This document shows positions 54,279 through 61,243 of a stretch of 64,000 nt of DNA, piece by piece. Numbering within the stretch: position 1 is the stretch's first letter; the number at the start of each line of letters is the position of its first letter. The position numbers and the translations under genes are program-made. The stretch lies in assembly GCF_022012335.1 (NCBI RefSeq), contig NZ_JAKLTO010000007.1, positions 1 through 64,000 on the forward strand, read 5' to 3'. The notes under the pieces are model-generated. The model had not been told where the DNA came from. It did not search any database and saw only the letters and a list, made by a program, of their open reading frames with translations. This stretch comes from Flavobacterium sp. SM15. Its GTDB lineage: Bacteria; Bacteroidota; Bacteroidia; Flavobacteriales; Flavobacteriaceae.

Positions 54279-55028
54279 TCATTTGAAATTTCTTAAAAAC
54301 TCTTCTTTATAAGTTGGTGAAATTTCGATTTCCGCGCCGTCGTTCAGCATGATGTAACCGCCTTTGTTGTAGGATTTTACAAAATTAATATTGATGATAT
54401 GCGATTTATGTACACGTAAAAAAGGAAACGGTAAAATCTCTGAAAAATGCTTGAGAAAACGGCACACCATTTTTTTACTGCCATCGGCTAAGTGTAAATC
54501 GGTAAAGTTCCCGTTGCCTCGTAGGCGGACGATGTCTTCCATTTTCACCACTTCAAAACCTTCCAAAGTAGGTAAAATCACCTGCTTTTTCTCCGGCTGG
54601 GTTTCACGGAAATTCTCCACGATGATTTTGTTCCGGTTGAAAAGCTCGTTATTGAGAATATGCTGTTGCACTTTATTGACCGCCACAATCAATTCTTCAA
54701 TACTGATGGGTTTTAACAGATAATAGGCGGCGCTTTGGTTGAGGGCTTTAAGTGAATATTCGGAAAAAGCGGTCACAAAAATCGTCTCAAACTGCAAATC
54801 CTTGCAGGCTTCCAACACATCAAAAGCATTTCCGAAAGGCATTTCCACATCCAAAAACACCAATTTCGGCGTCACTTCGTGCAATAACGGAACGGCTTCC
54901 TTGATGTTTTGGGCTTCTCCAATTACTTCTACCTGTGGGCAATATTTCCCAAGATAATTCTTGAGCACTTCACGCGCAGCAGTTTCGTCTTCAACAATTA
55001 CGGCTTTTATTTTCTGTAAGGTCATCAT
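54279..55028 (-). CDS. LytTR-family response regulator
   Basis: A 249-residue response regulator. The receiver (about 1-125) has IVEDETAAREVL, the phospho-acceptor Asp in KLVFLDVEMPFGNAFD, TAFSEYSLKAL and YYLLKPISIEELI. The LytTR DNA-binding domain (about 150-249) has FEVVKMEDIVRLRGNGNFTDLHLADG and FLRVHKSHIININFV. Its start overlaps the kinase gene by 4 bp (ATGA), so the pair is co-translated. LytTR proteins often act on membrane or envelope functions; targets are unknown. It may control the divergent toroid/VWA/DUF4139 genes, which is an inference from position. Confidence 0.92.
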   Translation of the reverse strand: MMTLQKIKAVIVEDETAAREVLKNYLGKYCPQVEVIGEAQNIKEAVPLLHEVTPKLVFLDVEMPFGNAFDVLEACKDLQFETIFVTAFSEYSLKALNQSAAYYLLKPISIEELIVAVNKVQQHILNNELFNRNKIIVENFRETQPEKKQVILPTLEGFEVVKMEDIVRLRGNGNFTDLHLADGSKKMVCRFLKHFSEILPFPFLRVHKSHIININFVKSYNKGGYIMLNDGAEIEISPTYKEEFLRNFK

Positions 55029-56854
55029 AATTTATCAAGCAAGGGAAAGGTAAGGGTTACTAAAGTTCCTGTGGTTCCGCTGTTTTTTTCGGTAATGGAG
55101 AAATCGATGTTGGTTTTATACAATTCATTCAGAAGACTGATACGCTCTTTAGTGTTGGTCACACCGCGCGACTGATGTACTTTCTGGTTGCGGGTTTTCA
55201 AGGCGGCACTTTCGGTCAGGCCGATCCCGTTATCGTCTACTAGTACCGAAACTTTTCCACGGTTGAGTTCGAATTTCAAGAGCAGTAATCCTTTGGTATC
55301 CCGATAGCGCAAACCGTGCCAGATTGCATTTTCCAGATGCGGTTGAATGAGCATGTTCGGGACTAGAGTCGTTTCGGTATCCAAAGCATCGTCTACCACA
55401 ATCTGATAGTCAAATTTGTCCTGAAAACGCAAATGTTCCAGATCCAGATACTTCTTGAGCTGTTCGATTTCGTTACTCAGGCTGATGAAATCCTTGTTGG
55501 AATTTTCCATCATGTTGCGCATAAGGTGCGAATACGAAGTCAGGTACTTGTTGGCTTCCAGCTCTTTATTTTGCGAAATGAACTGGTTGACACTGTTCAA
55601 ACTGTTGAAAATAAAATGCGGATTCATTTCCCGTCGTAACGACTGTAACGCGATTTCCTTATTCTTGATTTTGATGGAATACAGCGCTTTTACAATCAAT
55701 CCCACCAACAAAAGAAGCAACAACAACGATCCCAAAAGCACATAATTGAACGTATTTTTCTTGGCAATGAGTTCGTCTTTCAATATCTTTTCCTTTTCCA
55801 GCTGACGGATTTTCTCCTCCGTGACCTGAAAGGTTTTTTCATCAATTAAAGAACTGTCGTTGCGGATGAGTTTGTCGAAATTCTGAAAAAAATCATCATA
55901 CAAAGCAATGCTTTCTTTGTCTTTACCATGGGTTTTATAATATTGAAGCAATTGCAACAGGCTGTTTTTCACTTCGTCGGTTTTACCTTGTTGCAGCGCC
56001 AATTGATAGGCTTGTTGTAAACACTGAATCGCTTTTTCCGGTTCGTTTTTTTTGAAATAAATGGTCGCTAGGGTTTGCAGTTGCTTAATTTGGGTATCAA
56101 AATCATTTTTGGTTTTAGCCTCGGCCAACAATTTTTCACTGATGCCCAAAGCCTTGTCAAACTGATTGTCGGAAGCATACACTTTGGCAATTTCCGTTCT
56201 CAGTTTAGCGACTTCTTCCGGTTTATCTTTTACATAAGAAATCGCTTTTTCATAACTCTGAATGGCTACTTCCTTGTTTTTTTGCTGCAGGTTCATCTGT
56301 GCTTGTTGTACATAAGCATCGGCTACTTCTTCTTTTTTATCCGCTTTTTCAAGAATTTGAATATTGTATTTGGAATACCCCATTTGAGCCGCCGGGTTGT
56401 TGGCATTTCGCAAACGATTAGCATCATTGAAGTTCAATTGCTCGTAATTCTTATCTGGGGCAACTGCTCCGGCCGCTTCATAATTCTGTATTGCTGAAGT
56501 GATTTTATTTTGCGACTCCTGTACTTTGGCTAAGCTTCGATTAACTCTGGTTTGATCCCGGTTACGTTTCAATTTCGTATAAGTGCCCAGCGCTTTTTTC
56601 AGGTATTCTTCCGCTTTGGCGTTGTCCCCTTTTTCGATGAATCCATCGGCCAGGTTCTCATAGTTTTTGGCAATTTGAACCTCATCGTTGGCGTCTAATG
56701 ATTCTTTCAAATCGTCCGCAGCTCTGCTTATTTTATAGCTTGCAGCCTTTTTGCTTTTGGTTGCGGCAGGCTGAATACTATCCTGCGCGGAAACCTCAAG
56801 ACCAAGGTTTAGCGTAAAAAAAATAAAAGCAAAAAAGGCCTGTTTTAGTGACAT
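55025..56854 (-). CDS. TPR-sensor histidine kinase (LytS/YehU type)
   Basis: A 609-residue sensor kinase. It has a signal peptide (ends LEVSAQ), then a periplasmic array of about seven TPR units (55-330, with YEKAISYV, NQFDKALGISEKLL, NEPEKAIQCLQQAYQLA) and a single TM (about 370-390, YVLLGSLLLLLLLVGLIV). The His_kinase domain (MNPHFIFNSLNSVNQFI, His at the NPHF motif) and an HATPase_c domain (MLIQPHLENAIWHGLRYR, DDNGIGLTES) complete it. It overlaps the LytTR regulator. TPR sensor domains bind proteins or peptides, so the input may be an envelope protein. About 150 bp separates it from the divergent toroid gene. Confidence 0.93.
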   Translation of the reverse strand: MSLKQAFFAFIFFTLNLGLEVSAQDSIQPAATKSKKAASYKISRAADDLKESLDANDEVQIAKNYENLADGFIEKGDNAKAEEYLKKALGTYTKLKRNRDQTRVNRSLAKVQESQNKITSAIQNYEAAGAVAPDKNYEQLNFNDANRLRNANNPAAQMGYSKYNIQILEKADKKEEVADAYVQQAQMNLQQKNKEVAIQSYEKAISYVKDKPEEVAKLRTEIAKVYASDNQFDKALGISEKLLAEAKTKNDFDTQIKQLQTLATIYFKKNEPEKAIQCLQQAYQLALQQGKTDEVKNSLLQLLQYYKTHGKDKESIALYDDFFQNFDKLIRNDSSLIDEKTFQVTEEKIRQLEKEKILKDELIAKKNTFNYVLLGSLLLLLLLVGLIVKALYSIKIKNKEIALQSLRREMNPHFIFNSLNSVNQFISQNKELEANKYLTSYSHLMRNMMENSNKDFISLSNEIEQLKKYLDLEHLRFQDKFDYQIVVDDALDTETTLVPNMLIQPHLENAIWHGLRYRDTKGLLLLKFELNRGKVSVLVDDNGIGLTESAALKTRNQKVHQSRGVTNTKERISLLNELYKTNIDFSITEKNSGTTGTLVTLTFPLLDKL

Positions 56855-56971
56855 ACTACTGTGTTTCTATGTAAATGTAAAGTAAATATTTTAAAAACGG
56901 TGCGGCAAGCGGTTTCACCAAGTCGAAACCTGGTTTCACCCATTCTGCAAAAAACGTGCAAATTCTCAAGA

Positions 56972-56979
56972 TAATTTTG
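56972..56979 (+). promoter_or_regulatory. -7 box for the toroid/VWA/DUF4139 module
   Basis: TAATTTTG, 25 bp before the ATG at 57005, within the divergent region shared with the kinase gene. No TTG -33 is visible, which would fit an activated promoter. Confidence 0.45.
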
Positions 56980-57004
56980 GGATAGAATCATAAACCAAAA
57001 AACT

Positions 57005-58327
57005 ATGAAAACGGAAAATTTAATTGCAGTCTTGAGCGCTTCGGTATTAGTTACAGGGGCTGCTCTTACCTCAAAAATCTCTTCTGAAAAAAATCCTGTT
57101 GTCCAATACAAACCCTCTGTTGCAATTGAAAAGCCCGAAACCGAAGAAAAACCTTGTGTTTTTATGTCGATGATGGGCGAACAATCGGTAACCGATTATG
57201 CTAAGTACAAAAATGATTCCAAAACGACCACAACGATCAATAAAGGCGAAAAATGGCTAGCAGAAGCCCAAAACAAAGACGGAGGCTGGGGAGCCGGTTC
57301 CCACAGCAATCAGGGAGAAATGAACCCGCACGCCGTAAGTTCCGATCCGGCAACAACTGCGATGGCTTCGATGGCATTATACAGAATGGGTTATTCCATT
57401 GAAAAAGGGAAATACAAAACCCAACTTAAAAATGCTCTGGAATTTCTTTTATCCGAAGTGGAGAAAAACAAAAACAACGAGTTCATTACCCAAGTGCGCG
57501 GTACCCAGATTCAAACCAAACTCGGGCAAAACATTGATGCTGCCTTGACCTTGCAATTCTTAAACCAAGTCATACCAACCTTATCCGAGGGAACACTTAG
57601 AAAAAGAGTAGAAAACGCCATTCAGATTTGTGTAGATAAAATCGAAAAATCGTACGACGGAAACGGAAAAGTGAGTGGTGCCGGTTGGGCCGGTGTGTTG
57701 CAATCCTCATTTGCCAATGCCGGATTAGAACAAGCATCCAAAAACAAAAACATCAAAGTAAGTAAAGACAAAATTGACGCCGCAAGAAACTATCAGAAAG
57801 GCAATTACGATGCGGATAACAATCGTGCAAAAACAGAAGACGGCGCAGGAATTATGCTTTATGCGGTAAGCAGCTCGGTTCGTGGCAGTGCCACAGAAGC
57901 CAAAGAAGCCGAAGAACTCTTCGAAAAAGCCAAATCCGAAGGAAAAATCGATCGAAAAGCCGAAATGAGCAAGGAAAATTTAGAAAAAATAGGCGTTACC
58001 CGTGAAAAAGCCGCTTCCTATGATGTTGCTACCAAAGTTTACAAAGCCGCCAAAGTACAGGCCATGGACAACAACGTTATGAACGGTTTCGGGAACAACG
58101 GCGGAGAAGAATTCATGAGCTTTCTGCAAACCGGCGAATCTTTAATGGTAAAAAAAGACAACGACTGGAAACACTGGTACGACAATGTGAGCGGAAAAAT
58201 CATCAAAATCCAGAATGAGAACGGTAGTTGGAACGGACATCATTGCATTACCAGTCCGGTGTTCTGCACCGCAACCTGCCTACTGATTTTAACCATCGAA
58301 AACGACATCAAAACCTTACAACAATAA
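57005..58327 (+). CDS. Exported alpha-alpha toroid (prenyltransferase/squalene-cyclase-like) protein
   Basis: A 440-residue protein with an N-terminal hydrophobic segment (about 8-22, AVLSASVLVTGAALT) that could be a signal anchor. The toroid repeats include EKWLAEAQNKDGGWGAG (QW motif), DPATTAMASMALYRMGY, AALTLQFLNQVIP, GAGWAGVLQSSFANAG and a C-terminal QNENGSWNGHHCITSPVFCTATCLLILTI with three Cys and two His. No DDxD or other terpene-cyclase acid motif is seen, so cyclase activity is doubtful. It is followed 21 bp later by a VWA lipoprotein gene and then a DUF4139 gene. It may bind a ligand or another envelope protein. I know no named member. Confidence 0.75.
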   Translation: MKTENLIAVLSASVLVTGAALTSKISSEKNPVVQYKPSVAIEKPETEEKPCVFMSMMGEQSVTDYAKYKNDSKTTTTINKGEKWLAEAQNKDGGWGAGSHSNQGEMNPHAVSSDPATTAMASMALYRMGYSIEKGKYKTQLKNALEFLLSEVEKNKNNEFITQVRGTQIQTKLGQNIDAALTLQFLNQVIPTLSEGTLRKRVENAIQICVDKIEKSYDGNGKVSGAGWAGVLQSSFANAGLEQASKNKNIKVSKDKIDAARNYQKGNYDADNNRAKTEDGAGIMLYAVSSSVRGSATEAKEAEELFEKAKSEGKIDRKAEMSKENLEKIGVTREKAASYDVATKVYKAAKVQAMDNNVMNGFGNNGGEEFMSFLQTGESLMVKKDNDWKHWYDNVSGKIIKIQNENGSWNGHHCITSPVFCTATCLLILTIENDIKTLQQ

Positions 58328-58348
58328 TTTTTTAAAAAGACAAATACC

Positions 58349-59524
58349 ATGAAATCAACATTCATCATCACAGCCCTTTTTGCAACCGCTTTTACTTTTG
58401 CAAACTGCACGAATTCCAACCATAAGGAAACTTCAAAAACGTTAACTTCTGCTTCAACAATTGAGAAACCGATCAAAGTTGAAAACACCAAAATTCAAGT
58501 AGCCATTTTGCTGGACACTTCCAACAGCATGGACGGTTTGATCGAACAGGCGAAATCCCGTTTGTGGAACATCGTCAATACCTTAACCACACTAAAATAC
58601 CACGGAAAAACACCGGATATTGAAATCGGGTTGTACGAATATGGAAACGACGGTTTGTCTCAAGAATCGAATTACATTCGTCAAGTCGCGCCACTTACTA
58701 CCGATTTGGACCTGATTTCCGAAAAACTGTTTTCACTTCGCACCAATGGTGGCTCTGAATATTGCGGTGCTGTAATTGCCGATGCCACCAAACAACTGAA
58801 CTGGGGCAAAGACGCTTCGAATATGAAACTGGTCTACATTGCCGGAAACGAAGCGTTCAACCAAGGCGGCGTCAACTATAAAGAAGCGATTAGCGATGCG
58901 CTCAAAAAAGACATTTACATCAACACGATTTTCTGTGGTAATCAGGAAGAAGGCATCCGCACGTTCTGGAAAGACGGCGCCGATGCGGGAAAAGGCAAGT
59001 ATTTCAACATTGATTCCAACAAAGCGGTGATTTATATTGCTACGCCTTACGATGTGCGCATCTCCGAATGCAATACCAGAATCAACACGACTTACATCAG
59101 TTATGGCAGTATGGGCTATGAAAAGAAAATGAATCAGGCAGCACAGGATTCCAATGCACAAGGCGTTTCAGCAGCCAATTTTGCAGAGCGTACGGTGAGT
59201 AAATCTAAAGCGGTTTATAAAAATGACAGCTGGGATTTAGTCGACAAAGTTAAAGACGACAAAGGAGCCATCGACAAACTCAAAAAAGAAGAATTGCCAA
59301 AAGAACTGCAAAACAAGTCCAAAGCAGAAATTAAAGTTTATGTGGATCAGAAATCTAAAGAACGCGAAGCCATTCAGAAGGAAATTGGCGAATTAGGTAA
59401 AAAACGTCAGGCCTTTATCGATGCTGAAATGAAAAAAACCAACAGCCAGGACGATTTGGGCGGTGCAATTAACAGTTCCGTTATTGCTTTTGCTAAAACT
59501 AAAGGTTATACGGTTGAAAAATAA
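58349..59524 (+). CDS. VWA-domain lipoprotein
   Basis: A 391-residue lipoprotein with lipobox TFANC (Cys20). The von Willebrand factor A domain (about 50-240) has the MIDAS motif AILLDTSNSMDG (D-x-S-x-S), a Thr in the region SLRTNGGSEYCGA, and an IAGNEAFNQGGVNYKEA segment where a DxxE-type Asp is usual. The C-terminal third is helical and Lys/Glu-rich (DKLKKEELPKELQNKSKAEIKVYVDQKS), likely coiled coil. MIDAS metal sites mediate protein-protein binding, so this may be the adaptor of the three-gene module. It lies between the toroid gene (21 bp) and the DUF4139 gene (40 bp), all rightward. Confidence 0.85.
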   Translation: MKSTFIITALFATAFTFANCTNSNHKETSKTLTSASTIEKPIKVENTKIQVAILLDTSNSMDGLIEQAKSRLWNIVNTLTTLKYHGKTPDIEIGLYEYGNDGLSQESNYIRQVAPLTTDLDLISEKLFSLRTNGGSEYCGAVIADATKQLNWGKDASNMKLVYIAGNEAFNQGGVNYKEAISDALKKDIYINTIFCGNQEEGIRTFWKDGADAGKGKYFNIDSNKAVIYIATPYDVRISECNTRINTTYISYGSMGYEKKMNQAAQDSNAQGVSAANFAERTVSKSKAVYKNDSWDLVDKVKDDKGAIDKLKKEELPKELQNKSKAEIKVYVDQKSKEREAIQKEIGELGKKRQAFIDAEMKKTNSQDDLGGAINSSVIAFAKTKGYTVEK

Positions 59525-59564
59525 AAAGCAATTTCTTACTTTTAAACCTCTAAACCCTTTTTCT

Positions 59565-61181
59565 ATGAAACAGTTTTTTTTTGCCATTCTTTTTTTAATT
59601 TCCGGTTTGCTTTTTGCCCAGAAACCCATTTTTACACAGGCTAAAGTAAAATCAGCAACGGTTTATTTTAATGCTGCCGAACTTTCACAAAATGCAAATG
59701 TAACCTTACCGGCCGGAACCAGTGAAATTGTAATTAAAAATGTAGCCAATTACCTGAATGAGAATTCCGTTCAAATTGGAGCTCCGGCTTCCGTAACGGT
59801 GCTTTCGGTGCAATTCACAAACGATTATATTTCCGAATACGAGGTGGATGAAAATTCGCCGGCGATAAAAAAAGTAAAAGATAGTATCATTTTGGTACAA
59901 AAAGAACTTGAGAAACTCATCAATACCAAAAATTCGGAAACCAAAACCATCGAGCTTCTGGACAAGAACCAACAGGTTTTTGGTCAAAATTCAGGATTGA
60001 GTGTGGCGGAACTGATGAAAATGGTCGAGTACTACAAAACCAAGCGCACAGAAATGAGCAACAATGTAAACACGCTTACCGAAAAGGAAAAGAAACTGAA
60101 TGAAACGCTGAAGCGCCTGAACACCAAACTGGAAATCAACACCGAAAAGGAAGAAAAAACCTCAACGGGAAAATTGGTGTTACAAGTCATGAATACTGCT
60201 GCCGGGAATGTTCCTCTGGAAATTTCCTATCTGACCAATAGGGCAAGTTGGGCACCCTTTTACGATTTGAGAGCAGACAATGTGACCTCGCCCATCAACA
60301 TGATGTACAAAGCACAAGTAACTCAGAATACCGGTATAGACTGGAAGAAAGTAAAATTGACGTTGTCCTCGGGAAATCCGAACCAGAGCAATCAGGCGCC
60401 AACGGTAAATCCTTGGTTTTTAAGATATAGAAATGCCTATGGTTACGAAGCAGATGATGCTTCTCCAGCCTTACAGGAAGTTGTGGTAAGTGGTTATAGC
60501 GCAAAAAAAGATTCGAATATTAAAATAAGAGGCGCTAATTCTATTTCAGCACATACAACGATCAACGAAAACCAATTGAACATTTCTTTCGACATCGACA
60601 TTCCGTACGACATTTTATCCAACGGAAAGAAACACAGTGTGGCGCTGAAAGAAATCAAATTACCGGCTTCCTACAAGTATTATGCGGCTCCGAAACTGGA
60701 CAAAGAGGCGTTTCTTCTGGCAGAAATTACCGATTATGGCAAGTACAATTTGTTAAAAGGCGAAGCAAACATCATTTTTGAAGGCATGTACGTTGGAAAA
60801 ACTTTGGTAAACCCGGGGCAAACTTCGGATACTTTAAATTTGAGTATGGGGCGTGATAAAAAGGTTTCCATCAAACGTGAAAAAATCGTTGAAAAATCGG
60901 GAACGAAATTCTTATCTTCGAAAAAGGAGCAAACCTTCACTTACGACATTGTTATTCGCAACAATAAAAAAGAAGCGGTAAGCATTAAATTAGACGACCA
61001 GATTCCATTAAGCACCGATAAGGAAATCGAAATCGAACTAAAAGAAAAAGACGGCGCAAAACTCAATGCCGAAACCGGATTGCTCAGCTGGGAAATCAAT
61101 TTAAAACCTAACGAAACGAAAAAGCTCCGCTTAAGTTATATGGTGAAATCCCCTAAAGACAAAACCATCGATAATCTATAA
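59565..61181 (+). CDS. DUF4139/DUF4140 (MuiA-like) protein with a SusC-plug-like insert
   Basis: A 538-residue secreted protein with a signal peptide (1-19, ends LLFAQ). The N-terminal DUF4140 domain has AKVKSATVYFNAAELSQNANV and TLPAGTSEIVIKNVANYLN. It is followed by a coiled-coil region (about 105-205) and the DUF4139 domain (SYLTNRASWAPFYDLRADN, AQVTQNTGIDWKKVKLTLS and the final GLLSWEINLKPNETKKLRLSY). Residues 303-325 read LQEVVVSGYSAKKDS then IKIRGANSIS, the hallmark of SusC/RagA TonB-dependent receptors, inserted inside DUF4139. ATG 59565 starts the signal peptide; an extension to 59463 runs back into the VWA gene. MuiA is linked to mucoidy in other bacteria; role here unknown. Confidence 0.85.
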   Translation: MKQFFFAILFLISGLLFAQKPIFTQAKVKSATVYFNAAELSQNANVTLPAGTSEIVIKNVANYLNENSVQIGAPASVTVLSVQFTNDYISEYEVDENSPAIKKVKDSIILVQKELEKLINTKNSETKTIELLDKNQQVFGQNSGLSVAELMKMVEYYKTKRTEMSNNVNTLTEKEKKLNETLKRLNTKLEINTEKEEKTSTGKLVLQVMNTAAGNVPLEISYLTNRASWAPFYDLRADNVTSPINMMYKAQVTQNTGIDWKKVKLTLSSGNPNQSNQAPTVNPWFLRYRNAYGYEADDASPALQEVVVSGYSAKKDSNIKIRGANSISAHTTINENQLNISFDIDIPYDILSNGKKHSVALKEIKLPASYKYYAAPKLDKEAFLLAEITDYGKYNLLKGEANIIFEGMYVGKTLVNPGQTSDTLNLSMGRDKKVSIKREKIVEKSGTKFLSSKKEQTFTYDIVIRNNKKEAVSIKLDDQIPLSTDKEIEIELKEKDGAKLNAETGLLSWEINLKPNETKKLRLSYMVKSPKDKTIDNL

Positions 61182-61187
61182 CATATT

Positions 61188-61213
61188 TCCCGGCCTTTGT
61201 GTCGGGATTTTTT
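61188..61213 (+). terminator. Terminator of the toroid/VWA/DUF4139 operon
   Basis: Stem TCCCG / CGGGA with a 10-nt loop followed by seven T's, 6 bp past the DUF4139 stop. It excludes the GTG-start extension of the next frame (61199). Confidence 0.75.
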
Positions 61214-61243
61214 TATAATTTTATGACAACCAAATATTTACCC

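Follow-up and report, generated by a model that had tools for sequence, protein, structure and literature searches.

A putative LytTR operator shared by genes for exported proteins across the Flavobacteriaceae and gathered at one locus in Flavobacterium

The window analyzed here is a stretch of 64,000 nucleotides from Flavobacterium sp. SM15 (contig NZ_JAKLTO010000007.1, positions 1 to 64,000), the genome of which measures 2.99 Mb. It includes genes for a histidine kinase with a tetratricopeptide repeat (TPR) sensor, a LytTR response regulator, and three exported proteins: an alpha-alpha toroid, a von Willebrand factor A (VWA) lipoprotein, and a protein with DUF4140 and DUF4139 domains, called DUF4139 below. 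Comparison with related genomes made it probable that this trio represents the form taken in Flavobacterium by a LytTR regulon that is found throughout the Flavobacteriaceae and serves exported envelope proteins. An earlier note, made from the letters of the window, had described the five genes as three rightward genes with gaps of 21 and 40 bp and a leftward kinase/LytTR pair 150 bp away, and this layout was confirmed. The genes are as follows.

54279..55028, minus strand: LytTR response regulator (Pfam Response_reg 1.2e-15, LytTR 1.9e-11)
55025..56854, minus strand: LytS-type histidine kinase (Pfam His_kinase 5.5e-20, TPR_12 1.5e-16)
57005..58327, plus strand: exported alpha-alpha toroid (squalene-cyclase/TED-like fold), 440 aa (Pfam SQHop_cyclase_C 6e-7)
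58349..59524, plus strand: VWA lipoprotein, 391 aa (Pfam VWA 1.3e-6)
59565..61181, plus strand, from the ATG: DUF4140/DUF4139 protein of the MuiA family, 538 aa (DUF4139 2.5e-61, DUF4140 8.7e-21)

The kinase belongs to the His_kinase family (PF06580) and adjoins a Response_reg-LytTR regulator, which makes the pair a member of the LytS/LytTR class. The topology of the kinase, judged from the sequence, consists of a signal peptide, the TPRs and one membrane segment. The earlier note had guessed from gene order alone that this divergent pair controls the genes for the exported proteins. Three findings now support the guess: the operator recurs across genera, it precedes most unlinked copies of the genes, and it tracks the regulator. 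The elements found between the two groups of genes, among which the 21-bp repeat operator had not been noticed before, are listed below.

56913..56924, plus strand: operator box 1, TTTCACCAAGTC (repeat matrices, model R2)
56934..56945, plus strand: operator box 2, TTTCACCCATTC, 21 bp after box 1 (repeat matrices, model R2)
56972..56979, plus strand: -7 element of the rightward operon, TAATTTTG, beginning 26 nt after box 2 (spacing kept in 21 of 21 genus loci)
56877..56884, minus strand: possible -7 element for the kinase and regulator genes, TACTTTAC as read on that strand (proposed from the sequence)

Two samples were compared, a genus sample of 121 genomes and a family sample of 120 genomes with one genome per genus, the own genome included; genomes are cited by G numbers and loci by L numbers. 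The pattern consisted of a direct repeat, its period being 21 bp, and a TAnnTTTG/A element downstream of it at a near-constant distance. In F. psychrophilum, TAnnTTTG is the -7 consensus for sigma-A, and the box was taken as -12 to -5 (excerpts of PMC9723704). With the full matrix, a period of 21 and a -7 distance of 26 nt were found in all 21 genus loci; the 54 family loci, from which a weak VWA match in G113 (24%) was excluded, all had period 21, with a distance of 27 in 48, 26 in five and 28 in one. Because the full matrix had been trained on the same loci, the repeat was also scored by leave-one-out with both spacings free, using training sites placed earlier with the full matrix. Period 21 was recovered in 21/21 genus and 54/54 family loci, and the distances of 26 and 27 in 21/21 and 48/54, respectively. 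The scores were above the best Markov control in 21/21 genus loci (105 controls) and 51/54 family loci (270 controls). A third box was present 21 bp further upstream in 26 of the 54 family loci, compared to 1 of 540 random positions. The boxes occurred as two dialects of one pattern, TTTCACCMAKTC in the genus and GTTCACTCATTC in the other genera. At the candidate -7 position of the kinase operon, most genus loci had TGTAAAG.

LytTR operators are described as two direct repeats of 9-11 nt located 11-13 nt apart (PMC4847170, in part), a format matched by a period of 21, i.e., a 9-nt core plus 12. The start predicted from the -7 box is near 56984, 21 nt before the toroid ATG, which would place the boxes around -44 and -65 and the center of the operator near -55. 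We infer that the LytTR protein would bind these repeats and, once bound, aid RNA polymerase at the -7 element located at a fixed distance, so that the operon is turned on. The opposite possibility, that the operator represses and the operon is on until a signal is received, seems unlikely: the sequence does not show in which direction control works and sites near promoters can repress, but boxes upstream of a -7 element at a fixed distance have an activator-like position, comparable to that of the AgrA sites, which are centered near -60 (PMC4227749, in part).

Most of the toroid and DUF4139 genes that are unlinked to VWA also have the operator in front. In all 11 other genera that have both toroid and VWA, these genes are on separate contigs or more than 100 kb apart. 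The toroid promoters were scored with a matrix made only from the VWA-facing promoters of the 54 other genera, leaving the period free. Eleven of 12 unlinked toroid promoters, all outside the training set, had period 21, and ten scored above all 175 control genes of the same loci. Among 54 non-Flavobacterium toroid loci, in part from the same organisms as these 12, the period was 21 in 50; 47 also exceeded the 95th percentile of 777 control genes, and 33 exceeded all of them. The Flavobacterium-type toroid loci (L278-L295) and the window had the operator in 19 of 19 sources (E 2.8e-18 to 2.2e-7), four of which (the window, L280, L293 and L295) also belonged to the training set. A sequence-only model, R1, derived from 47 VWA-facing promoters, was searched in 25 whole genomes. 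Among the matches listed, R1 preceded the unlinked toroid in at least 8 of the 12 genomes that have a toroid (E 3.2e-6 to 0.016) and DUF4139 in at least five of ten (G118 1.6e-5, G056 4.7e-5, G076 0.025, G108 0.034, G077 0.057).

The DUF4139 promoters behaved according to the presence of the regulator. In genomes with VWA and this LytTR, 13 of 17 scored above all 57 control genes and 15 had period 21; none of seven intact DUF4139 genes in genomes lacking both VWA and this LytTR scored above the controls. This comparison left out L247 (contig end near the gene), G003 and G072 (VWA), and G053 and G089 (no VWA). It also kept the fragmented DUF4139 gene of G117 out of the seven negatives. That genome has no VWA, its LytTR ortholog is 67% identical, and the operator is located at one of the three fragments of its broken DUF4139 gene.

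The operator also followed the regulator in searches of whole genomes. The 21 genomes with the regulator had their best R1 matches at E 9.9e-14 to 4.2e-5, many of these matches being training sites; in four complete genomes without this LytTR (G014, G021, G023, G025), the best matches were at 0.0027 to 0.098. A genus model, R2, detected one strong site in the own genome (E 5.4e-15, in the training set), followed by a match at 0.03. In G208, which has kept VWA and lacks the kinase and LytTR, R2 found no operator up to E 0.1, and the VWA-less genomes G129, G140 and G163 had no match better than 0.0077 (the LytTR was checked in G129 only). Of five VWA-less genomes with a LytTR ortholog (G010, G028, G074, G113, G117), the operator test covered G074, G113 and G117; G074 and G113 had operator matches with no VWA of this type.

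The closest LytTR proteins in the seven operator-negative DUF4139 genomes share 29-44% identity with an other-genus query, compared to 59-85% for the orthologs in other genera. The Flavobacterium-type regulators share just 45-47% identity with this query and, therefore, their orthology rests on gene order and the tree. In a LytTR tree of 38 sequences, 19 module-linked proteins and four further orthologs formed one clade (100/97); the other 15 sequences, paralogs of which the own genome contributed three, fell outside it. The paralogs came from 15 of 16 fetched stretches, since L368 had no usable open reading frame (ORF), and some of their branches are long. Each of the two subclades of the LytTR clade corresponded to one operator dialect; L063 (G094), the only other genus sampled within the Flavobacterium subclade, had a Flavobacterium-type box.

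These comparisons bear on the possibility that some other transcription factor binds the repeat, the LytTR pair being a mere neighbor. LytTR homologs were found in 40 of 40 genomes searched, with 12 matches in the own genome, and related LytTR proteins could share a site; the link between operator and LytTR comes from comparison of sequences. Nonetheless, this explanation is improbable in view of the operators in G074 and G113 and at the G117 DUF4139 fragment, the absence of a convincing operator in G014, G021, G023, G025 and G208 despite their LytTR paralogs, the lack of operators at 7/7 intact DUF4139 genes in genomes with paralogs but no ortholog, and a repeat spacing that fits LytTR (PMC4847170, in part). 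Comparison across genomes thus supports the putative operator, its promoter spacing, its co-occurrence with the regulator and the membership of the regulon.

The earlier note had proposed a protein complex made by the three exported proteins and a neighborhood search for the trio among relatives. In the genus sample, 4 genomes have the toroid and 54 have DUF4139; a full-length VWA is present in 21, and there is one further, weak VWA match. The family sample had the toroid in 13, VWA in 56 (weak in G113) and DUF4139 in 31. The trio is not conserved as a three-gene unit because it is contiguous in just 3 of the 121 genus genomes (G000, G128, G229), and it thus fails the conservation test that the earlier note had set. 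G216 lacks DUF4139 but has the other two genes. Within the 18 Flavobacterium-type toroid loci, the full trio is contiguous in 5 and toroid plus VWA in 16. Six of the 21 VWA genomes of the genus lack DUF4139, 39 of the 54 DUF4139 genomes lack VWA, and L281 has toroid and DUF4139 without VWA. A single conserved three-protein complex is, therefore, improbable, given these losses and the distance between toroid and VWA in the other genera sampled. It has in its favor that the genes are adjacent and co-directional, that all products are exported, that toroid and VWA are contiguous in those 16 loci, and that VWA and DUF4139 are neighbors, with at most one gene between them, in all 15 genus genomes that have both. 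A chance neighborhood of three unrelated exported genes is very improbable: DUF4139 keeps its position in the genus even in the absence of VWA and kinase, but all three families have the common operator at unlinked loci, and for toroid and VWA chance is already contradicted.

The core formed by VWA, kinase and LytTR was more stable. VWA is divergent from the kinase-LytTR pair in 54/54 other genera with a strong VWA match, adjoining it directly in 41 and separated from it by one ORF in 13, and in 20 of the 21 VWA genomes of the genus; the exception is G208, without kinase and LytTR. The genes between VWA and kinase code for SIMPL (PF04402), DUF4349 or unassigned products. The regulator without VWA was found in three genus genomes (G220, G236, G151). 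In G151 (L139 9394-12143), the place of VWA is taken by an 87-aa ORF, a patatin-like phospholipase gene and an Omp85-like gene, preceded by the kinase/LytTR pair and two operators. A presumed PorP/SprF-like gene, judged by eye, is convergent to VWA in most other genera (L064, L065, L124 and others), and several other-genus contigs end about 1 kb past VWA.

The first gene behind the promoter varies in the genus, and the position of the promoter is constant whether toroid, VWA or SIMPL comes first. The toroid is first in G000, G128, G216 and G229, VWA in most others, and SIMPL in six genomes (G160, G167, G178, G197, G206, G220). Five of these six have a second operator copy before VWA; G220, with no VWA, has it before YkuD_2. 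Two copies precede VWA in G209, where no SIMPL gene was called. L281 has operators before SIMPL and before the toroid, and in L294 the toroid stands alone with an operator in front (E 2.2e-7). The lone toroid with its operator in L294 and the paired operators in L281 and in the SIMPL-first genomes look like intermediates of gathering.

Further candidate members of the regulon were found among the R1 targets in other genera. They include YfbK-type VWA proteins (L220, L221, L222, L258, L266, and L226 with the N-terminal part), a VIT-VWA-CarboxypepD_reg-Plug protein (L218), an A2M-like protein (L212), TonB (L215, and L263 by likeness), an M14 peptidase (L257), and a 164-aa protein whose sole Pfam match is a TonB-receptor plug at residues 69-163 (L255 2798-3292, R1 E 0.0016). 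Targets with CarboxypepD_reg were present in 15 of 34 chosen R1 stretches, as a raw count. A gene start was located within 400 bp downstream and in the right direction in 28 of the 34, a loose criterion that was also passed in G014 (L267), which lacks the regulator. Two of the six stretches without a gene start, L221 and L226, have the match at the 5' end of an over-long YfbK-type ORF. Some of the weaker R1 matches are surely chance. Proteins downstream of R1 matches in L214, L217, L223 and L254 have an N-terminal PCxENW...GxFCxxC...DF motif followed by CarboxypepD_reg domains; this cysteine-rich part had no Pfam match up to E 0.01.

The plug domain recurs inside DUF4139 itself. The DUF4139 product of the window, the only DUF4139 match in its genome, matches the MuiA family model TIGR02231 over its full length (residues 27-535, 4e-79, 266.7 bits with a cut-off of 112.6). 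Two features of this gene, both new with respect to the earlier note, are the following.

59537..59544, plus strand: possible own -7 box of DUF4139, TACTTTTA (proposed from the sequence)
60471..60548, plus strand: TonB-receptor plug remnant of 26 residues, LQEVVVSGYSAKKDSNIKIRGANSIS, inside DUF4139 (comparison with the G128 ortholog)

The -7 box TACTTTTA also precedes DUF4139 in L048, the G128 locus, where the ortholog has a Plug domain in the corresponding part (E 3.5e-10). Pfam found no Plug match in the window DUF4139, and none was found in that of G209 (L120). The scan also covered six DUF4139 proteins of other genera, all from genomes with VWA: CarboxypepD_reg_2 lay inside DUF4139 in five, four of which also had Plug, whereas the sixth (G003, L079) had neither. 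Two from regulator-less genomes had CarboxypepD_reg_2 with no Plug match. Compared to the MuiA family, then, the whole protein matches here, several related genera have a CarboxypepD_reg/Plug module inside DUF4139, and the window has a remnant of it. In L048, L228, L230, L232, L236 and L249, CarboxypepD_reg and, mostly, Plug are inserted in the middle of DUF4139 without a beta-barrel.

The proposed pathway starts with a signal that, from the protein families, would arrive at the TPRs of the kinase, which would then phosphorylate its LytTR partner. Activation from the operator would produce the exported toroid and the VWA lipoprotein, with DUF4139 either cotranscribed or expressed from an additional promoter, and the outer envelope would be the place where these products act. 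The orthologous LytTR of other genera would serve the same genes at scattered sites together with SIMPL, YfbK-type VWA, VIT-VWA, A2M-like, TonB and CarboxypepD_reg/Plug proteins. The binding to DNA, the activation, the signal and the task of the regulon are thus proposals. The task is likely the maintenance or protection of the outer envelope and perhaps concerns TonB-linked outer-membrane traffic; the presence of TonB and plug modules among the targets suggests, with moderate to low confidence, outer-membrane transport or its protection. A more specific and tentative version is a Flavobacteriaceae outer-envelope stress response that goes from the TPR sensor through the LytTR operator to TonB and to otherwise orphan exported VWA, VIT-VWA, toroid, A2M-like and DUF4139 proteins. 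Several of these have a barrel-less plug module, so TonB could pull on them as protective or repair devices at the outer membrane, and in Flavobacterium the regulon would have shrunk to one locus.

Several observations weigh against a family-wide LytTR regulon. Three of 54 family loci scored within the control range and six deviate in -7 spacing. Cross-trained matrices were weaker: the genus-trained matrix gave period 21 in 37/54 family loci and the family-trained one in 13/21 genus loci. Some promoters failed to exceed all controls, namely two of the 12 for the toroid and four of the 17 for DUF4139. The 21-bp operator was clear in only 1 of 8 Cytophagales/Saprospiraceae toroid loci (L323), and therefore the toroid is not tied to the regulon everywhere; L338 scored 21.3 but with period 25, and its toroid groups with Patiriisocius in the tree. 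The own genome has a strong operator at this locus only (R2), and DUF4139 may have its own promoter in the window. A LytTR ortholog is present in five VWA-less genomes (G010, G028, G074, G113, G117), and the loci counted here were located through VWA or the toroid. The envelope task is read from the protein families.

No flavobacterial envelope-stress regulator of this kind is known to have been described. The gene set or the operator had no description among the matches listed in open-access full-text searches, which for some searches were far from complete. The type of regulator and the protein families were already known; the regulon, the operator, its spread in the Flavobacteriaceae and the gathering at one locus in Flavobacterium did not appear among those matches. 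As in the LytS/LytTR systems YpdA/YpdB and AgrA (PMC4847170, PMC4227749, both in part), a His_kinase-family kinase and a LytTR regulator are accompanied by two repeats about 21 bp apart upstream of a promoter. The differences from the known systems are a regulon of exported VWA, toroid and DUF4139 proteins and a flavobacterial -7 promoter. The sensor also differs, with TPRs here and a multi-membrane-span input in LytS. Bat-type and other bacterial VWA operons likewise have an exported VWA protein with a MIDAS-like motif, whereas the VWA gene described here is divergent from a LytTR pair.

In a coevolution experiment with F. johnsoniae, all five lines mutated in an adjacent LytTR/kinase pair, FJOH_RS09515/FJOH_RS09520 (PMC10197871, in part). 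The reported C at nt 44 of the regulator fits none of the 15 LytTR genes of this clade that were compared from the genus, a result that depends on the start codon, and therefore this pair is probably another one. The terms "von Willebrand" and "two-component" were absent, by term search, from the main text of three papers on F. johnsoniae outer-membrane biogenesis (PMC12611786, PMC12045153, PMC11885536), one of which supposes a stress response to outer-membrane damage and names no regulator there (PMC12045153). If the family-wide LytTR regulon is real, orphan families gain a common context, a mutable operator, a deletable sensor and a list of targets across many genera, and the locus becomes a worked case of scattered regulon members collected behind one operator.

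The toroid starts with an N-terminal signal or anchor, and its nearest named relative is from Flavobacterium suncheonense (87-88%). The model is an alpha-alpha toroid with a mean predicted local distance difference test (pLDDT) score of 78, many core blocks reaching 85-98 and others being lower. Its best structural matches include squalene cyclases and (alpha/alpha)6 glycosidases; the fold is that of squalene-hopene cyclases (Z 21.1, 3.5 A over 278 residues to 2sqc), and Foldseek also lists C4, C5 and A2M chains, the proteins with complement/A2M TED domains. Unlike squalene cyclases, the toroid is exported and has no DxDD: there is no DD dipeptide anywhere in the translation, in line with the earlier note, which had seen no cyclase acid motif. 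A squalene/oxidosqualene cyclase was rejected for this reason and for a TIGR01787 score of 34.1 bits with a cut-off of 322.7. An A2M/complement thioester protein was rejected as well, with TED at 18.1 bits against a cut-off of 22 and CxEQ absent; M-G-E-Q is found where TED would have C-G-E-Q (position by eye). No function follows from the shared fold by itself. An alignment of 35 sequences showed no variation at C51-V52, G366-G367-E368-E369 and G411-H412-H413-C414, and almost none at G58-E59. The invariance of C51 and of the two later blocks makes a binding or catalytic site likely; the invariant cluster comprises C51, E368, E369, H412, H413, C414 and C421. In the Cytophagales loci L327, L337, L344 and L347, three genes of about 800 aa that run in the direction of the toroid precede it, a layout unlike that of the Flavobacteriaceae.

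The VWA domain (PF00092) was over its cut-off, and D56, S58 and S60 (DxSxS) are invariant in 16 rows. The metal ion-dependent adhesion site (MIDAS) attributed to this protein before is thus supported in its DxSxS part; where a canonical MIDAS would have an Asp, there is an invariant I-A-G-N-E. The lipobox-like C20 is nearly invariant in 17 Flavobacterium-type rows and missing in some other genera. The predicted structure is weak (pLDDT 61.5), and an alignment profile had no match among solved structures up to E 1. The last feature lies behind DUF4139.

61188..61214, plus strand: terminator-like stem at 61188-61207 plus a T-tract (argued from position)

The stem is located where the earlier note had seen a terminator closing the operon, and terminator-like stems are equally frequent in shuffled sequence.

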